Shown here: piece after piece, positions 1 to 39,135 of the stretch
Layout: the number at the start of each line of letters is the position of its first letter
How positions within the stretch are numbered: the first letter of the stretch is position 1
NCBI RefSeq assembly: GCF_004104015.1
Contig: NZ_RYFV01000029.1
Span: 1-39,262, forward strand
Reading direction: 5' to 3'
Length of the DNA stretch: 39,262 nucleotides
Origin: Actinomyces oricola
GTDB lineage: Bacteria > Actinomycetota > Actinomycetes > Actinomycetales > Actinomycetaceae
Program-made: the position numbers and the translations under genes
Notes under the pieces: generated by a model
The model's input: the letters and a program-made list of their open reading frames with translations, nothing else
The model's database searches: none
What the model was told of the DNA's origin: nothing

Positions 1-371
1 GTGGTGTGGTGCTTGCCGGAGTACAGCTCGGGGTGGTCTCTCCAGGACCAGCATGGTGCCAGGGTGCCGTCGATGATGAGTTCGGTGGTGGGCTCCAGGT
101 CCTCCACGGTGGGGACGGCGTCCTGGAGGGCCTGGGCGATCAGGGGCGTGTAGGCGCCGATGACGCGGCTGATGGTGGCTTGTGAGACGTCCATGATGGC
201 GGCGATGAGTTCCTGGGTGAGGTTGTGGGCCAGGTACAGCAAGGTGGTCTTGACGCACCCGCGCAGGCCCAGGGACCGCAGGCCCGCCGCCGGCAGGGCG
301 CCAACATGCTGTTCCAGGGTGGTGCACAGGTGGCTCACCTGACGCTGGTCCAGTCGTGTGATACCGTTCAT
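1..371 (-). mobile_element. IS5-like transposase, N-terminal part, cut by window edge
   Basis: Reading leftwards from an ATG at 371, 123 codons stay open to the window edge. The protein has a helix-turn-helix near residues 50-75 (LTQELIAAIMDVSQATISRVI region) and then LIIDGT, which fits the first catalytic Asp of a DDE transposase, followed by YSGKHHT. This layout is that of the HTH_Tnp_4 plus DDE_Tnp_4 transposases of the IS5 group. The C-terminal half lies outside the window. The element's end should lie a short way right of 371, but no inverted repeat can be confirmed with one end only. It lies directly against the broken gene at about 546-1076 and probably caused that truncation. Confidence 0.8.
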
Positions 372-545
372 GGTGGCGCCCTTGCCCGTGGCTGGTTTTT
401 GTTTAGACGCCTAAATTGTCCGCTGGTTGGGGCGCCACCCACAACCTCTCTTACGTCACCCACCTGGAGAGCCCGCCAGGCGGCGGGAACCACTCCATTC
501 CGCACCCCCGGTTACCCACCATCCTTTCCGGCCTCCTCCGACGAA
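372..545. other. IS end and junction, no gene seen
   Basis: This stretch holds the leader of the left transposase and the junction with the AT-richer island. An imperfect palindrome TTTAGACGCCTAAA lies at 402-415 and could belong to the transposase promoter or the element end. GC-rich composition persists until about 540, then drops. The plus-strand frame of the next gene is open through here from 225, but that part is antisense to the transposase and should not be read as its protein. Confidence 0.4.
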
Positions 546-1076
546 ATCCCGCAAACCCCTGTGAATAACCTTCACTATTTAGGCTGGTACCAGAGATTTC
601 TCCCGTCTCACTGGCACGAAGCTCTATTCAATGAAGACCAAATTCGTCGGTTCTGCAGAGAAATGGTCAGAATTTCCGGCGGCACTGATCCTGTTGATCA
701 TCCCTCCGATCGCTATTCCCGGTTTTCCTTAGGAGCGAGAGTTCGAAAACACGCCTCTGAAATGGGCAGATCATCCGAATCGCTAGCCGAGGCTGCATGG
801 GTAGCGGGCTATGCAACTGTAGTTGAAGAATTTAAGATTGACGTACCGGCAACATGGAATATTTTTCGAAGAGAGTGGAATCGGCTGGTTTCTACGCAGC
901 TCTTTGGAAACTCTGCGATTGAGACCTCGCTTTCGGGCAACGGGACGTCTGCTGCAGGCCTAACGGTCCCGATTTCAGACGACCCTGCCGCCCCAAGTAC
1001 CAAACCATCCGGCAATCGCGCGTTGACAGATTTCACTATCGCCAGGTTGCGGGCATGGGCAAAGGCGGACATTTAG
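546..1076 (+). pseudogene. 3' remnant of a gene upstream of rdrB-like deaminase (candidate rdrA tail)
   Basis: An open frame without a convincing start runs to a stop at 1074-1076. From about 546 its protein looks natural and its composition matches the deaminase gene. The first in-frame ATG in the AT-rich part is at 663 (137 residues) and has only a weak ribosome site. The product ends in a low-complexity Ser/Pro/Ala stretch and a basic helix (DFTIARLRAWAKADI). It overlaps the deaminase start by 22 bp in another frame, the arrangement of a translationally coupled upstream partner. In RADAR loci the ATPase gene rdrA lies immediately upstream of rdrB, so this may be the rdrA 3' end left after the IS insertion. 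No ATPase motif remains to prove it, and the fragment itself is not recognised. Confidence 0.5.
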
Positions 1077-3634
1077 GCAGCAACGTGAATACTTCGAGAC
1101 TTAATAATCACGTGAACCTTGACAGTGACTTAGCACGATGGACTATTCCCTGTTTGACGTGGACAGTTTTCAATTCGGATCGGTTTGGTAGCCCTTCTAC
1201 CTTTCCTCATAACGTTCCAGGAACAACATTTCGCGACGATCAGGTTGAGTGGTGGCTTGACACTTTGGACATAGTATCCGAAGGTAATCAAGTTAAGGTT
1301 GAAAACATTCTATTGACCCTTTTCAGACTATATAACGACCCGATTCGTCTGATCAATTGGTATGATTTGGAATTGCCTTCGCCGGACTATTCATGGAAGA
1401 GATTCTTAGCGCATCGCCTATTCGGTCCTGAGCCGACGTACTGGAAGGATGACGATCGCTCAGGAACTCAGACATGGGTTCAAGATTGCCACGTTCACTC
1501 TGGATTAGCTTATGATGTACGCACCTTGTTGAATAGTATTATTTACAGAGGTCCCAGCTTTCAAGTGGGCTCGTCATCATCTCAAGAAATGGTCGTGCTG
1601 CTAAGCAGCATTAGATGGGCGTTCTTGAGTTTGTCTGATATCGTGAGATTTAGATCGTGGGAGTTACCCGATTTCGTGCACCATAGCAATTCAGCTGGAG
1701 CTTGGAGTCTTGTCGTTAACGGCAAGTTTTGGACAATAGTTTCCGGGATCGTTTCTAAAGATAGCAACATTGGTCGCTCCGAGATCCAAACAATATTCAA
1801 TGATGTCGTATCGTTTGAGGATTTCGAACGGCTCGCTCATCTCGACACAAATGGAACGAGCCAAGATACGCCGCATCGACTACTAAAGGATGTTTTTGAA
1901 CAACGTCTCTTAAATGAGGATCAGAGCTATCATATTACTATTGATAACAATGAATTCGACTGGAGACATGTCTTTATCTTGAATCTTGTGAGAGCGTGTG
2001 TCAGGGTCTTTTCTAAAGTAGCCTCAATACCAGGTGAAGGATTCGCTGAATTTCAATCTCACTGCGACTATGCGTCACAGTTGCGGAAGTCAATTGTGGG
2101 ACCTCAACCGGGTATTTTCAATCTTCGTAAGGACTATACTAACGAAGTACTCGCTCTCAGATCGTCGATGGAGCTAGCGCTTGTGGGTTTTCCTCGCCCA
2201 TTTCGCTGCAACGGTTTTGAGTTAAGGCGGGAGATCGACCCTTGTCTTACCACGACCGAAATGGAAAGAGATATTCTTTCTGGCTTCAAGAAGCTCTGGT
2301 CGGCCTTTGATGGACTGCTGTATAATCTACCAGACGATTTTAACTTTCCGAACGGCTTCAGTTTCTCCACGCCGATCTCGTTCCAACGCCCGAGAGTAGA
2401 TTGGACTAGCTCACTATGTCCAGGAAATCATGCGACAGACTCCGATATACCCGTACATGACTTGCGCTATAGTCTGCCGTGGGAACAGGTTAGTTACGCT
2501 GCGACACTTTGCAGCTCTATTGCATCACTACATGAAAAACTTGGTTCGGAGAAGCTTCGGTGTTACGTTGGATGGTTTGATGTCAGCGGTGCTGAGGTTG
2601 ATCATGCTAGCTGGCCGTATGTTGCCGCAATGAATTGGCTGTACAAGAACGGTATCAAAGTACCTTTTGGCGCGCATGCGGGCGAATGTTTCCGGCATGG
2701 CTATCGGGGCCTACGAACAATCGGAGAATTCCTCGTTTACGGTTCAGAGAATCTCTCTCGCTTGGGTCACTGTATAGCCCTTGGAATGAACTACAGAAGG
2801 AAGGTGAGTAATCAGTATCCAATCGTATCTCCGCTAGGCTATGCCGCAGCTTTCACTGAGACGATGTTGGATCTGTGTTTCTTCCATGAGATCTTAAGAG
2901 AGTTGGAAGACACGGGTGGATCGACTCAGTGTGCGAATTATATCGAACGGCTTGCTAGACCATATTGTGGTTCAGCAATACCGGTCGATTCTTGGATAGC
3001 GGCTTTCAAGTTCTTACATTCTTACGACTTGATCGATTGGGCGATCGAGAATCTTGGACTACAGGGCGACCAATGGTGTCGAGAATCGTCGAAGTCTGCA
3101 TGGCGAGCTACGATTAAAAACTGTGTTGAATCAACCCAGCACGCTATTCAGTGCTTTGCTTGGAATGAAGTCATCTCTACCAGTACCCTCGGAAGGACAC
3201 CGGAGTTCGTATTTCGGTTTGACGCACACCTCTATGGCGAGATCGAGAAGTTCCTCATGCAGCACACTCTTAAAGTTGACGGGTTTCTACGATCAGAACT
3301 GGCTAAGAGGAAAGTTGTCGTAGAATGTTGTCCGACTTCCAATATGGCAATAGCGGGGACTCGAGAGTACAGCAGTCATCCTTTGTGGGAACTACGTCAC
3401 ACCAGAGACCTGCATTTTACGGTGAGTTCTGACGACCCACTGGTTTTCGGAGGTTTTGCGGGAAGAGAGCTTAGAACGCTATTGGACCACTGCCCTGAAG
3501 GTGCTTCTTTCTTGCAGGCCGTATTTCAGATTACGTATGCGTCATCCGACACTCATCAGAGGTGGCAACCAGCCACCGATTTACCTGCCATCAGGGCGAT
3601 GATAAAAGACCTTTCGGCATTATTAGAACGGTGA
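1055..3634 (+). CDS. RdrB-like adenosine deaminase of RADAR type
   Basis: An 859-residue protein carrying the adenosine-deaminase metal site: HxH at residues 146/148, a GxE-type motif near 505-515 (FDVSGAEV), HAGE at 541-544 with the catalytic Glu 544, LGHC with His 572, CPTSN at 759-763 and SDDP with Asp 793/794. Ordinary adenosine deaminases are about 350 residues. Here there is a 140-residue N-terminal extension, roughly 195 extra residues between HxH and HAGE, and about 165 between GHC and DD. This size and split layout fit RdrB, the deaminase of the RADAR anti-phage system, which acts on adenosine nucleotides or RNA in infected cells. All catalytic residues are present, so the enzyme could be active. 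The gene is clearly AT-richer than its neighbours, a sign of transfer. Its start overlaps the upstream remnant. No intact RdrA-like ATPase is in the window. Confidence 0.75.
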   Translation: MGKGGHLGSNVNTSRLNNHVNLDSDLARWTIPCLTWTVFNSDRFGSPSTFPHNVPGTTFRDDQVEWWLDTLDIVSEGNQVKVENILLTLFRLYNDPIRLINWYDLELPSPDYSWKRFLAHRLFGPEPTYWKDDDRSGTQTWVQDCHVHSGLAYDVRTLLNSIIYRGPSFQVGSSSSQEMVVLLSSIRWAFLSLSDIVRFRSWELPDFVHHSNSAGAWSLVVNGKFWTIVSGIVSKDSNIGRSEIQTIFNDVVSFEDFERLAHLDTNGTSQDTPHRLLKDVFEQRLLNEDQSYHITIDNNEFDWRHVFILNLVRACVRVFSKVASIPGEGFAEFQSHCDYASQLRKSIVGPQPGIFNLRKDYTNEVLALRSSMELALVGFPRPFRCNGFELRREIDPCLTTTEMERDILSGFKKLWSAFDGLLYNLPDDFNFPNGFSFSTPISFQRPRVDWTSSLCPGNHATDSDIPVHDLRYSLPWEQVSYAATLCSSIASLHEKLGSEKLRCYVGWFDVSGAEVDHASWPYVAAMNWLYKNGIKVPFGAHAGECFRHGYRGLRTIGEFLVYGSENLSRLGHCIALGMNYRRKVSNQYPIVSPLGYAAAFTETMLDLCFFHEILRELEDTGGSTQCANYIERLARPYCGSAIPVDSWIAAFKFLHSYDLIDWAIENLGLQGDQWCRESSKSAWRATIKNCVESTQHAIQCFAWNEVISTSTLGRTPEFVFRFDAHLYGEIEKFLMQHTLKVDGFLRSELAKRKVVVECCPTSNMAIAGTREYSSHPLWELRHTRDLHFTVSSDDPLVFGGFAGRELRTLLDHCPEGASFLQAVFQITYASSDTHQRWQPATDLPAIRAMIKDLSALLER

Positions 3635-4013
3635 TTTTTGTCGTGCTGAGACACGCCTCCCAGACGTTACGTGATTCTGTTCTTCCTTGATCTGATAGCA
3701 AGGAGATCTGCCTGGACTGAGAGAGTTCGATGTGTTCAATCAGAGGTTGTGGTTGAAATCGAACTGGAACGATCGGCAACATCGCTGGCCTGTTGCTTCA
3801 GAAAGGTACGCCTCCCTGTCTCGACACGCTCCGGTCGCTCATGCGCGACCTTGATTTCATCTCCTGCCCAGCTACGCCGAGAAGTGAGCAGCATCATCGT
3901 GCTTGCTGAGGACAAACGCATTCCCGGACTAACCTGGTCCGGGGCCACTTCGAACTGCTTCTCCTTCTTACTCCCGATGTATGGTCGATCCGTATCGGGC
4001 CCGTCGCGGCCCC
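3635..4013. other. Intergenic between rdrB-like gene and leuS, nothing recognised
   Basis: This 379-bp gap lies between convergent genes. Composition climbs back from AT-rich to GC-rich across it, so it contains the right border of the island. Short ORFs on both strands (for example 3671-4057 plus and 3736-3948 minus) have no recognisable product and no good ribosome site. No clear terminator hairpin, direct repeat or attachment site was found. Confidence 0.5.
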
Positions 4014-6989
4014 TTACTCGGGTACGACGCTCACGAGCTTGGGTGCGCGCACAATGACCTTGCGCACGCCCCTGCCGTCCAGCGCGCGCAGCACGCCGGG
4101 CGCCGCCAGCGCCAGCTTCTCCAGCTCGGATTCGGGGATATCCGGGGCGACCTGGAGGCGGTCGCGGACCTTGCCCTTGACTTGGACGACGCAGGTCACC
4201 GTCTCGGCCTTGAGCAGTTCGGGGTCCTCGACCCGGGGGAAGGGCTCATTGGCCAGGGAGTGCTCATTGCCCAGCCTGGACCAGATCTCCTCGCAGATGT
4301 GCGGGGCCACGGGCGCGGTCATGAGGACCAGGGCCTGGGCGGCCTCACGCGGGACCGCCTCCAGTGAGGTGAGGTGGTTGTTGAGCACAATGAGCTTGGC
4401 GATCGCCGTGTTGAGGCGCATGGCCTCGTAGTCGGCGCGCACGCCCACGATCGTGCGGGCGATGAGGCGTCGCGTCGCCTCATCGGCCGGCTCGTCGACC
4501 ACCGTGACGGCCCCGGTGGCCTCCGAGACGACGTTGCGCCACATCCGCTGCAAGAAGCGCTGGGCTCCGGCCACGGCGCGCGTGTCCCAGGGGCGGTCCT
4601 GGTCGAGCGGCCCCATGCTCATCTCGTAGACGCGGAAGGTGTCCGCCCCGTAGGCCCGGTACATCTCGTCGGGGGTGACAATGTTCTTCAGGGACTTGCC
4701 CATCTTGCCGTACTCGCGGTTCACGGCCTGCCCCTGCCAGGTGAACACGGTGGAGCCGTCCGCTGCGGTGGCCTCCTCGACTTCCTCGGCGGGCACGTAC
4801 TGGCCGCGGGAGTCGGTGTAGGCGTAGGCCTGGATGTAGCCCTGGTTGAACAGGCGGTGGTAGGGCTCTGAGGAGCTGACCACGCCCAGGTCGAAGAGGA
4901 CCTTGTGCCAGAAGCGGGAGTAGAGCAGGTGCAGGACGGCGTGCTCCACGCCGCCCACGTACAGGTCGGTGCCGCCCGAGACGTTGCCGTTCTCGGGCCG
5001 CGGCCCCATCCAGTAGGCCTCGTTGACGGGGTCAATGAGGTTGTTCTCGTCATCGGGGTCCACGTAGCGCATCTCGTACCAGCACGAGCCCGCCCAGTTG
5101 GGCATGGTGTTGGTCTCGCGGAAGTAGGTCTTGGGCCCCTCCCCCAGGTCGAGTTCAACCCTGACCCAGTCGGTGGCCCTGCCCAGAGGCGGCTCGGGGT
5201 CGGAGTCGGCGTCGTCGGGGTCGTAGGAGCGCGGGGAGTAGTCGGTGACCTCCGGCAACTCCACGGGCAGCATGGACTCGGGCAGGGCGTGGACGCGGCC
5301 CTCCTCATCCCAGACCACGGGGAAGGGCTCGCCCCAGTAGCGCTGGCGGCTGAAGAGCCAGTCGCGCAGGCGGTAGGTGACCGCCCCCCGGCCGGTGCCC
5401 TTGGACTCCAGCCAGGCGGTCATGGCCGCCTTGGCCTCGTCCTTGCCCATGCCGTTGAGATCAATCTCGTCATTGGCGGAATTGACCAGCTCGCCGTCCC
5501 CAGTCCAGGCGGCCTCCTCCAGGGAGAACCCCTCCGGCGGGGCAATGGTGGCAATGACGTCCAGGTCGTACTGGCGGGCGAAGTCCCAGTCGCGCTGGTC
5601 GCCGGAGGGCACGGCCATAATGGCGCCGGTGCCGTAGCCCATGAGCACATAGTCGGCCACGAACACCGGTACCAGTGCGCCATTGACGGGGTTGACGCCG
5701 TAGAAGCCGGTGAAGACACCGGTCTTGGCCCGGCCCTCGTCGGTGCGGTCGGCCTCGGAGGTGGCTGCGGCCCGGGCGCGGTAGGCGGCCACGGCCTGGG
5801 CGGGCGTGGCGTGGCCCCCGGTCCAGGCCCGCTTAGTGCCCTCGGGCCAGGCCGCCGGGACCGTCAGGGCGGCGGCGTCGGCGGCGATCTCCTCCGCCGA
5901 GCGCACGGAGGCCGGGGAGGCGATGCCGCCCAGGACCGGGTGCTCGGGAGAGACAACCATGAAGGTGGCGCCGAAGAGGGTGTCCGGGCGCGTGGTGTAG
6001 ACCTCCAGGGAGTCCTGGCAGGCGCCGGCCCGGCTCGCACCGGACAGGGCGAAGGTGACCTGGGCGCCCTCGGAGCGGCCGATCCAGTTGCGCTGCATGA
6101 GCTTGACCTTCTCCGGCCAGTCCACGGTGTCCAGGTCCTCGGCCAGGCGGTCCCCGTAGGCGGTGATGCGCATCATCCACTGGCGCAGATTGCGCTTGAA
6201 CACCGGGTAGTTGCCGCGCTCGGAGCGGCCCTCGGCGGTGACCTCCTCATTGGCCAGCACCGTGCCCAGGCCGGGGCACCAGTTCACCGGGGCGCTGGAG
6301 ATGTAGGCCAGGCGGTGGGAGTCGACGACGTCGGCCTGCTCGCCGGGTGTCAGCTGAGCCCAGGGCCGCCCGTCGGGGGTGGGCACCTGGCCGGAGGCCA
6401 GCTTGGAGATCAACTCACTGACCGGGCGGGCGGCGCCGGTGCCGCGACCGTCACGGCGCGGGGCGGTGGGATCGAACCAGGAGTTGAAGATCTGCAGGAA
6501 GATCCACTGCGTCCAGCGCACGTAGCCGGGGTCAATGGTGGCCAGGGAGCGGCGCGGATCATGTGACAGGCCCAGGCGGCGCAGCTGACGGCGCATGGTG
6601 GCGATGTTCGCCTCGGTGGAGGTGCGCGGGTGCTGGCCGGTGGCCACGGCGTACTGCTCGGCGGGCAGGCCGAAGGCGTCGTAGCCCATGGTGTACAGCA
6701 CGTTCTTGCCGGTCATGCGGGTGAAGCGGGCCACGACGTCGGTGGCGATGTAGCCCAGGGGGTGCCCCACGTGCAGGCCCTTGCCGCTGGGGTAGGGGAA
6801 CATGTCGAGCAGGAAGAACTTCTCCCGCGCGGCGCCCGGGCCCGCCAGCGCACCGACTGGGTTGTCGGCGTGGAAAGTGCCCTCGGACTCCCAGCGGTCC
6901 TGCCAGGAGGTCTCAATGGAGTCGGCCAACGCCGCCGTGTAGCGGTAGGGGGTGGCCTCGTCCGTGCCCTGCGGGGTGTTGTCCGTCAT
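4014..6989 (-). CDS. leuS: Leucyl-tRNA synthetase
   Basis: A 991-residue class I aminoacyl-tRNA synthetase that charges tRNA-Leu in the cytoplasm. The HIGH-type signature is HVGH in [16 protein letters not shown] near residues 67-82, and the KMSKS-type signature is KMGKSLKN near 765. The large editing domain ([35 protein letters not shown]) lies between them, and an anticodon-binding C-terminal region follows. Length and layout match actinobacterial LeuS. ATG at 6989 is used; the ribosome site is weak. The gene is divergent from nhaA and convergent with the deaminase gene. No T-box leader was seen. Confidence 0.97.
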
Positions 6990-37689: not shown

Positions 37690-39135
37690 GGGCCTGTCAA
37701 GTTTTTTTGTGTAAGTGGTGTGGGTTACAGGTGGGGGTTGATGCGTTCGGGGTAGGCCAGGGCGAGTTGTTGGAGGGCTTGTTTCCAGTTGGTGGTCACG
37801 GCTCCCTCGACGAGTCGCCCCGGGGCTCGTCGCTTGTTGGCTGGTAGTCCTTTGTCCTTTTGGCGCTCTCGGGCTCGCTTGTCTTCGATGTTGCAGATCG
37901 CCAGCCACAGCAGCTTGACGGCGGCCTCGTCGGTGGGGAAGTGGCCCCGGTTCTTGGTGACCTTGCGCAACTGGTAGTTCAACGACTCAATACTGTTAGT
38001 GGTGTAGATCACCCGCCGCAGCATCGGGGGGAAGGCCAAGAAAGGCGTGAACCGCTCCCAGGCATCGGTGAAGGTCTTGACCGCCGCCGGGTAGCGCTGC
38101 CCCAGCTCACTGGCCTCGAAAGCCTCCAGGGCCTCCAAGGCCTCCTCCTCGGTGGCGGCCTGGTAGACCGGCTTCAAAGCGGCGCACACGGCCTTGCGAT
38201 CCTTGTAGGACACAAACCTGGTGGACGCCCGGATCAGATGGACCACGCAGGTCTGGACCGTGGCCTGGGGCCAGGTCGCCTCGATCGCCTCGGGCAGGCC
38301 CGTCAACCCATCGCAGCACACGATCAGCACGTCCTTGATGCCCCTATTGGCCAGCTCAGCGCACACTCCCGCCCAGAACTTGGCTCCCTCGTGGGTCTGG
38401 ACCCAGATGCCCAGGACATGCTTGATCCCATCCATGTCCACCCCGATGGCGATATAAGCGGCCTTGTTGATCACATGGGCGCCATCGCGGATCTTGACGG
38501 TGATGGCGTCCAAGTAGATCACCGGATAGAGAGCCTCCAAGGGCCGGTGCTGCCAGGCCAGGACCTCCTGGCCGATCTGATCGGTGATCTTGGAGATCGT
38601 CTCATGACTCAACTCAGTGCCGATCGTGACAGCCAGATGGTGCTGGATATCGCGCACCGTCATGCCCCCGGCATACAGACTGATGATCATCCCGTCCAGA
38701 CCATCGAGGCGCCGCTGGCCCTTGGGCACCAGCATCGGGGTGAAGGTCCCGGCACGGTCCCGAGGGATGTCCAGGTCCACATCCCCGACCTCGGTTCCGA
38801 TCGTCTTGGGACTCGTGCCGTTACGGGAGTTGGGATAGGCAGCCGCGTCCGGGTCGCCCTTGTCGTAGCCCAGATGCTCGCTCAGCTCGGTCTCCAGACC
38901 CCGTTCCAAGGCCGCCTTGACCACCCCCGACAACAGACCATCATCGCCTGTCAACGGGGTGCCAGCATCCATCTGAGCGAAGATCCCATCCAACGCCCCA
39001 GACGCCTTGAGCTCCTCTGCAACCTGACGTTGCCGCCTGCGAGCCTCAGCCCGCTCCTCATCCACGCTCACACTCACAGTCTCGTCTCCTTTCCGCTCAG
39101 ATCACACCCCCTTACACAAACCATCTGACACCCTC
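37690..39135 (-). mobile_element. IS256-family insertion sequence with 8-bp target duplication
   Basis: A 1,446-bp element. Ends share an imperfect inverted repeat: GGGCCTGTCAAG at the left and GAGGGTGTCAGA at the right (read inwards), followed in both by a TTTGTGTAAG stretch. It is flanked by the direct repeat GGCCACGC at 37682-37689 and 39136-39143, the 8-bp duplication typical of IS256. It carries one complete transposase gene. Confidence 0.85.
37725..39077 (-). CDS. IS256-family (Mutator-like) transposase
   Basis: A 450-residue DDE transposase. Catalytic residues lie in YLDAITVKIRDG (first Asp), VCCDGLTGLPEAIEATWP (second Asp, with the Mutator signature) and NSIESLN (Glu). The zinc/His region CVVHLIRASTRFVSYKDRK is typical. 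Full length for the family and no internal stop, so likely active. GTG at 39077 has a GGAG site upstream. It lies inside its own terminal repeats. Confidence 0.95.
   Translation of the reverse strand: MSVSVDEERAEARRRQRQVAEELKASGALDGIFAQMDAGTPLTGDDGLLSGVVKAALERGLETELSEHLGYDKGDPDAAAYPNSRNGTSPKTIGTEVGDVDLDIPRDRAGTFTPMLVPKGQRRLDGLDGMIISLYAGGMTVRDIQHHLAVTIGTELSHETISKITDQIGQEVLAWQHRPLEALYPVIYLDAITVKIRDGAHVINKAAYIAIGVDMDGIKHVLGIWVQTHEGAKFWAGVCAELANRGIKDVLIVCCDGLTGLPEAIEATWPQATVQTCVVHLIRASTRFVSYKDRKAVCAALKPVYQAATEEEALEALEAFEASELGQRYPAAVKTFTDAWERFTPFLAFPPMLRRVIYTTNSIESLNYQLRKVTKNRGHFPTDEAAVKLLWLAICNIEDKRARERQKDKGLPANKRRAPGRLVEGAVTTNWKQALQQLALAYPERINPHL

Follow-up and report, generated by a model that had tools for sequence, protein, structure and literature searches.

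A 39,262-nucleotide stretch of the Actinomyces oricola genome (assembly GCF_004104015.1, contig NZ_RYFV01000029.1), hereafter the window, carries a gene for a giant adenosine-deaminase-superfamily enzyme. The locus raises the question of whether this enzyme is RdrB, the deaminase of the RADAR anti-phage system, and, if so, where its ATPase partner RdrA is to be found. The window is the entire contig C20 of a 2.93-Mb genome assembled in 78 contigs. Our comparative analysis indicates that the gene is very probably the intact rdrB of a deep, divergent RADAR branch, and that rdrA has been destroyed in this genome. The assignment to RdrB rests on the layout of the protein, on alignment and, above all, on the partner gene.

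The deaminase gene

The open reading frame (ORF) runs uninterrupted from ATG to stop, and its product matches the Pfam A_deaminase model at 37.4 bits (cut-off 27). The ligands H146, H148, H541-A-G-E544, H572, D793 and D794 were verified in the protein sequence and compared column by column in an alignment with 62 RdrBs. These were 62 of the 75 RdrBs from genome_contigs that measured 790-1030 amino acids (aa), near-copies having been removed; five of the 80 RdrBs fell outside that length, and the 80 loci were the best 80 of 327 confirmed. The gene and its motifs are as follows.

1055..3634, plus strand: rdrB-like gene, intact, 859 aa, giant adenosine-deaminase-superfamily enzyme
1490..1498, plus strand: HVH zinc motif (H146, H148); H in both columns in 62 of 62 RdrBs
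2675..2686, plus strand: HAGE motif (zinc H541, catalytic E544); H541, G543 and E544 in 62 of 62 RdrBs
2768..2770, plus strand: H572, the fourth zinc-binding His; insertion 3 comes after it; 62 of 62 RdrBs
3431..3436, plus strand: D793 and D794 of the SSDDP motif; 62 of 62 and 61 of 62 RdrBs, respectively

The original prediction of an intact protein of this size with these ligands was upheld: the frame is open, the letters are in place and the columns match those of RdrB. Translation may in fact begin 10-15 codons further in, as a relative (P0003, 73% identical) starts near residue 15 of the window protein (P0001). A promoter scan of positions 350-4050 found about as many sites as chance predicts (5 against 3.5 expected, one of them on the plus strand).

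The spacing of the ligands leaves 145 residues ahead of H146, 392 between H148 and H541, and 220 between H572 and D793. By this layout the protein has three insertions relative to adenosine deaminase (ADA): an N-terminal extension, an insertion that splits the core, and one that follows the last His. The first two correspond to those of RdrB by position in the layout. The large insertions that had been predicted are present, but they number three rather than two when counted as in E. coli RdrB, for which PMC9994260 describes three insertions relative to ADA and the ligands H152/H154/H498/E501/H530. The window protein resembles E. coli RdrB (P0304799.3, PDB 8fnv; also 8hr7) in its zinc-His tetrad and Glu, which occur in the same order with similar spacing, in the three-insertion layout, in size (844-859 aa in the branch, about 90 kDa in E. 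coli) and in its place in tandem after an RdrA-like gene.

A search of 5.8 billion proteins, which depends on shared exact words, returned only two relatives besides the window's own protein, P0003 (844 aa) and P0004 (856 aa, 33% identical), and a re-search with an alignment of the three gave no others. These three branch proteins are 13-21% identical to the 62 sampled RdrBs, and 20 columns were invariant across all of them. The best PDB sequence match of the window protein was RdrB (1e-5; CECR1, 1.9e-5), as was its best PADLOC match (5.1e-7, 26 bits). Comparison by hhalign with six RdrBs gave 98.9% over 282 columns, and with our own 81-row RdrB profile 99.6% over 290 columns that extended through insertion 3. 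On the corresponding hidden Markov model (HMM), for which RdrBs under 780 aa were removed (81 of 86 kept), the branch proteins scored 45-57 bits and seven ordinary ADAs of the genus 8-18. The structural check suggested in the original prediction also led to RdrB. A model made with the 62 RdrB rows added to its alignment (predicted local distance difference test score, pLDDT, 68.1; predicted template modelling score, pTM, 0.79) had RdrB chains at Foldseek ranks 1-8 (E 5.4e-11 to 1.4e-8), with E. coli RdrB at the top and the next match at 2.5e-3. Among the matches listed, RdrB alone aligned over most of this model (610-611 residues).

In an IQ-TREE phylogeny, the branch grouped with RdrB against five ADAs. 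The 39 RdrBs in the tree were 36 of the 80 from genome_contigs, chosen by eye for spread, together with L043 and two of five fetched plasmid RdrBs; the outgroup was limited to five closely related ADAs of the genus, a megablast of an ADA locus against plasmids having yielded none. L043 (G679:C32) encodes an 809-aa RdrB from the same phylum as the window and forms a long branch among RdrBs of Bacillota and Bacteroidota.

The partner gene

Upstream of the deaminase gene, the window begins with two truncated features.

1..574, minus strand: right end of an insertion sequence (IS), with 123 N-terminal transposase residues (3-371, minus strand), then about 200 non-coding bases; an end that recurs at other contigs
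575..1076, plus strand: 3' remnant of an rdrA-like gene, truncated by the IS to the final ~166 codons

The last 127-128 bases of the IS end recur (98%) at the termini of contigs C11, C16 and C28, and past base 573-575 the flanking sequences are no longer alike; the ORF at 575-1076 therefore starts at the IS edge. The transposase part is 66% identical to a 246-aa transposase of a relative, and base 1 of the contig is a break inside the IS. By means of that 246-aa transposase, the other end of the IS was found at six contig ends (C22, C10, C6, C77 start, C77 end and C78). The sequence at the C77 end is rich in A+T and encodes the N-terminal 181 residues of a P-loop ATPase, running into the IS (L055:7332 on). 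Tracing the IS ends is how this N-terminal fragment was found; a search of the genome with the PADLOC RdrA model PDLC02216 gave no match, but neither did its control.

The best NCBIfam match of the N-terminal fragment was RdrA (1.5e-7), as was its best PDB match (8fnu, 9.3e-5), and in PADLOC PifA (1.3e-8) stood ahead of RdrA (7.2e-4). The 3' remnant alone had no notable match in Pfam, PADLOC or NCBIfam and none below E 0.9 in the PDB. With both fragments joined by X as the query, full-length homologues colinear along their length were recovered: P0006 (764 aa), P0007 (782 aa), P0008 (775 aa) and P0009 (781 aa). When P0006 was searched against the A. oricola genome, it matched only C77:91233-91733 (98%, residues 1-167) and C20:567-1073 (99%, residues 596-764), which identifies the fragments as opposite ends of a single gene. 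About 428 residues (P0006 ~168-595), including Walker B, are missing from the assembly, and only Walker A survives; this strain is thus without a complete RADAR. All four homologues carry both motifs, and the branch may hold a complete system.

The homologues also led to RdrA. A profile of the four matched 8fnu at 6.4e-11, followed by an ATPase chain of the RdrA-RdrB entry 8hr7 (0.16) and an unrelated chain (0.18). Comparison by hhalign with five RdrAs gave 98.3% over 269 columns spanning Walker A, the IDPTLL motif (ISPELF here) and Walker B. On our own RdrA HMM, from which RdrAs under 750 aa were removed (68 of 74 kept), the homologues scored 58-76 bits and the N-terminal fragment 49.2. Among 1650 frames of 200+ aa from the fetched loci, with the RdrA frames of RADAR loci and the N-terminal fragment set aside, the best score was 5.7 bits; the non-training frames above that value, besides the homologues, were five from RADAR loci and the N-terminal fragment itself. 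NCBIfam RdrA was the best model for all four homologues (1.1e-7 to 5e-12). They thus resemble RdrA (8fnu) in an N-terminal AAA+/KAP ATPase with Walker A, the RdrA-type motif and Walker B in turn, and differ from it in length (764-782 against 907 aa) and in a C-terminal half for which no match was found. The copy in the window's genome differs further in being broken, everything from Walker B to the last ~166 residues being missing.

The RdrA-like remnant lies directly upstream of rdrB, which is the tandem order of RADAR. Its stop codon falls within the called rdrB ORF, with an overlap of 22 bases. In 69 of the 80 RdrB loci, rdrB is preceded by a same-strand ORF of 450+ aa at a distance of no more than 400 bases. 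P0003, P0004 and P0006-P0009 derive from metagenome contigs. P0004 and P0008 are each listed with a single contig of 5756 bases, which suggests one operon and an intact pair in another lineage; the contigs listed for P0003 and P0007 differ (5767 and 3253 bases). Together with the layout and the catalytic columns, this partner remnant supports the proposal of an actinobacterial RADAR branch. As to the accompanying suggestion that the deaminase may now work alone or with a partner elsewhere, the N-terminal part of the partner lies on C77, its tail adjoins rdrB, and the gene was broken by the IS.

Location of the island and loss of rdrA

Two further features lie downstream of the deaminase gene.

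3635..4013, no strand: AT-richer island tail without a supported gene (ORF 3671-4057 has no Pfam match)
4014..6989, minus strand: leuS, chromosomal flank and synteny anchor (Pfam leucyl-tRNA synthetase editing domain and class I synthetase models)

G+C content is 46.9% in the rdrB-like gene, 48.5% over positions 575-4013 and 68.9% from position 4014 to the window end, which agrees with the earlier description of an AT-rich gene in a GC-rich genome. LeuS was present in 31 of 31 searched genomes of the genus, the window's own (G000) included. Linkage was examined over the ~8 kb 3' of leuS in 18 relatives, against which frames of 100+ aa from ten contig ends were searched (tblastn, E 1e-20). Chromosomal frames of the C77 end matched these stretches in up to 14 relatives. 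The other contig ends gave transposase-type matches only, C22 in one stretch and the far end of C20 in two (Mutator transposase). A HerA-like helicase gene at the C77 end (L055:4715-6733) converges on leuS in 12 of the 18 stretches, with gaps of 60-7293 bases; it was not found in the other six, and in two of these the leuS end was not found either. This synteny makes C77 and C20 neighbors with the island between them, and it strongly indicates that the two RdrA ends belong to one locus. Very probably, then, an AT-rich island sits between the HerA-like helicase gene and leuS in this high-G+C bacterium, and its order before the break was DUF5663 gene, rdrA, rdrB. We infer that the island arrived by horizontal transfer.

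The triplets beside the IS ends pair for C22 and C16 (ATA), for C77 start and C11 (GTT), and for C6 with C28 or C20 (ACT). Those at the C77 end and C20 differ (AAT versus ACT), which means that one simple IS insertion did not produce the break. The unequal triplets and the missing ~1.3 kb fit insertion of an IS and a subsequent deletion next to it. An arrangement of two IS copies with the RdrA middle between them was rejected, the middle being on no contig; it could be an unassembled piece.

Three other observations concern this region. The DUF5663 gene (L055:6867-7280, C77 end; 137 aa, Pfam 3.7e-11) immediately precedes the RdrA-like gene within the AT-rich island and is a possible third component. 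The HerA-leuS gap appears to be an insertion hotspot, the largest example (L100) carrying Mutator and IS110 transposases and an AAA_21 gene. Near the far contig end, window positions 37725-39077 encode a Mutator/IS256-family transposase, and nine of its ten best listed plasmid matches are from actinobacterial genera.

Distribution of the branch

Among the 49 genomes of the genus searched, none of the 48 others held a full-length homologue of the deaminase; 16 gave pieces of 18-21 bits, and the seven of these inspected were ordinary ADAs of 340-390 aa. Scans with the three-row alignment gave 115 pattern-matching stretches in genome_contigs and 59 in viral_contigs, with no relative confirmed in either. 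A class-wide search with the same alignment at 1e-8 matched five other genomes of 394, over only ~65-100 profile columns. Tblastn searches of the window protein against plasmids and of the L043 RdrB against phages returned no match. The branch was not reported in the literature retrieved on actinobacterial or Actinomyces RADAR and orphan RdrB, a search whose coverage leaves out most subscription papers.

Three of the other loci examined have features of their own. L167, on a contig titled as a metagenome-assembled genome of Candidatus Heimdallarchaeota, has an ORF of 671 aa immediately before one that resembles RdrB, and represents either archaeal RADAR or a stray binned contig. In L132 (Catenovulum agarivorans YM01), rdrB is a 587-aa ORF and a second frame matches the RdrB profile at 269 bits; the gene is apparently split by a frameshift or sequencing error. 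L106 (Aureibacter plasmid pAT1) holds an RdrA/RdrB-like pair annotated as hypothetical, and a SLATT-domain gene follows, overlapping rdrB.

Evidence against the assignment and alternative explanations

Several results weigh against assignment to RADAR. The window protein reached 32.9 bits against the cut-off of 800 of the NCBIfam RdrB equivalog NF041744 and is not a member (the same-phylum L043 RdrB, at 142 bits, is likewise under the cut-off), and three plain adenosine deaminase models outscored RdrB in NCBIfam, the best at 39.8 bits. In the profile check proposed earlier, RdrB stood first in PADLOC and below plain ADA models in NCBIfam. P0004 matches PADLOC CARF_ADA (5.1e-4) better than RdrB (0.0082), a three-row profile ties CECR1 (ADA2; 7.6e-7) with RdrB (8.9e-7), and three other ADA-like frames from same-class genomes scored 37-44 bits on our RdrB HMM. 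Over the N-terminal ~480 residues, alignment to RdrB is limited to the surroundings of HxH (53 columns, 34%). A structure model from the three branch rows alone was poor (pLDDT 40.9) and was not used, and the RdrB likeness of the model that was used is partly built in because its alignment contained the 62 RdrB rows. The tree put the branch outside all 39 sampled RdrBs at low support (81/77) and with a long-branch warning. On the partner side, the homologues scored 30.8-45.1 bits against the cut-off of 600 of the RdrA model NF041743 and are not members, and PifA was the top PADLOC match for all four. The IS is not crossed by any read or contig, which leaves the C77-C20 join based on synteny, and the triplets at the two ends are unequal.

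An alternative that we consider unlikely is that the orphan RdrB has been retained because it is useful: it might still protect, as an ATP deaminase that is slow or controlled at the level of expression, or it might serve to control growth. The rdrB ORF is intact beside a broken rdrA; moreover, PMC9994260 reports that E. coli RdrB alone makes inosine triphosphate (ITP) and is toxic when over-expressed, so that an intact orphan is not obviously neutral. However, the break may be recent, E. coli defense requires both proteins according to the same paper, and the promoter scan was at chance level. A related and similarly unlikely proposal is that the branch and all known RADAR are sister lineages. 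The branch would then be a second type of RADAR, seen here in only a few genomes and metagenome contigs, with an RdrB able to act in the absence of the ATPase, and in this strain the deaminase would be retained and useful alone. If this were true, the strain would be a natural carrier of RdrB without RdrA.

It is also possible, although improbable, that a giant ADA and a PifA-like KAP ATPase joined independently into a separate system that resembles RADAR. The placement of PifA over RdrA by PADLOC, the position of the branch in the tree and the N-terminal halves that barely align all favor such an origin. Against it, the best single-sequence or partner-profile PDB matches of both partners are RADAR proteins, gene order and spacing are those of rdrA-rdrB, insertion 3 aligns, and the tree flags long branches meeting. 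Conservation among known RADAR RdrBs is likewise confined to the C-terminal part (PMC9994260).

A housekeeping adenosine, adenine or AMP deaminase or an ADA2-like enzyme with unrelated extensions would share the catalytic barrel and ligands of ADA2/ADGF and housekeeping ADA, but is very unlikely given the lack of a full-length copy in the 48 other genus genomes, the AT-rich island, the tandem RdrA-like partner and the match of RdrB alone, among the matches listed, to most of the model built with RdrB rows. Such enzymes are shorter in the listed solved chains (314-506 residues), and we know of no RdrA-like partner for them.

Cad1 (CARF-ADA), a type III CRISPR effector with an ADA fold that is reported to convert ATP to ITP (PMC11645235), shares that fold with the window protein and has a weak PADLOC match to its ADA end only (3.2e-4, residues 744-809). 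Unlike Cad1, the window protein has no CARF match in Pfam or PADLOC, and its layout and partner are different. Kongming KomA was considered as a candidate and rejected; no search was made for its companion genes.

The preferred reading is a divergent RADAR, set apart from known RdrBs by its low identity, its NCBIfam score, its hardly alignable N-terminal half and its place outside the sampled sequences.

Proposed function and significance

In E. coli (PMC9994260), the ATPase RdrA assembles as a heptamer and RdrB as a dodecamer. RdrB purified without its partner turns ATP and dATP into ITP and dITP, RdrA enhances this activity, and defense needs both. Over-expressed RdrB led to ITP accumulation and toxicity without infection, in cells that, by the methods, also carried an RdrA plasmid. 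By analogy, in an intact system of this branch a phage cue would switch on the RdrA AAA+ ring, the ring would dock on the RdrB shell, and RdrB would turn ATP and dATP into ITP and dITP, halting phage growth. In this strain, the IS and the loss of ~430 RdrA residues would have destroyed rdrA and left rdrB whole, and RdrB would therefore be an orphan without its activator. Such an orphan is probably still able to deaminate ATP or other adenine nucleotides, if it is made, and the system probably no longer defends and is decaying. From the E. coli proteins we infer the substrate, shell, docking and defense of the branch, as well as its present inactivity here.

Standard models barely detect the branch (PADLOC 26 bits; NCBIfam 33 bits against 800), and a search with PADLOC's model of RdrB at 1e-10 matched a single genome among 396 of the phylum and missed the window's own; RADAR may therefore be under-counted in this phylum. 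Sequences this distant can help to separate the residues needed for ATP deamination from those that are specific to assembly. The locus would be a natural case of RADAR decay in which the activator was lost and a potentially toxic deaminase kept, and it allows a test of whether RdrB without RdrA is harmless, useful or toxic.

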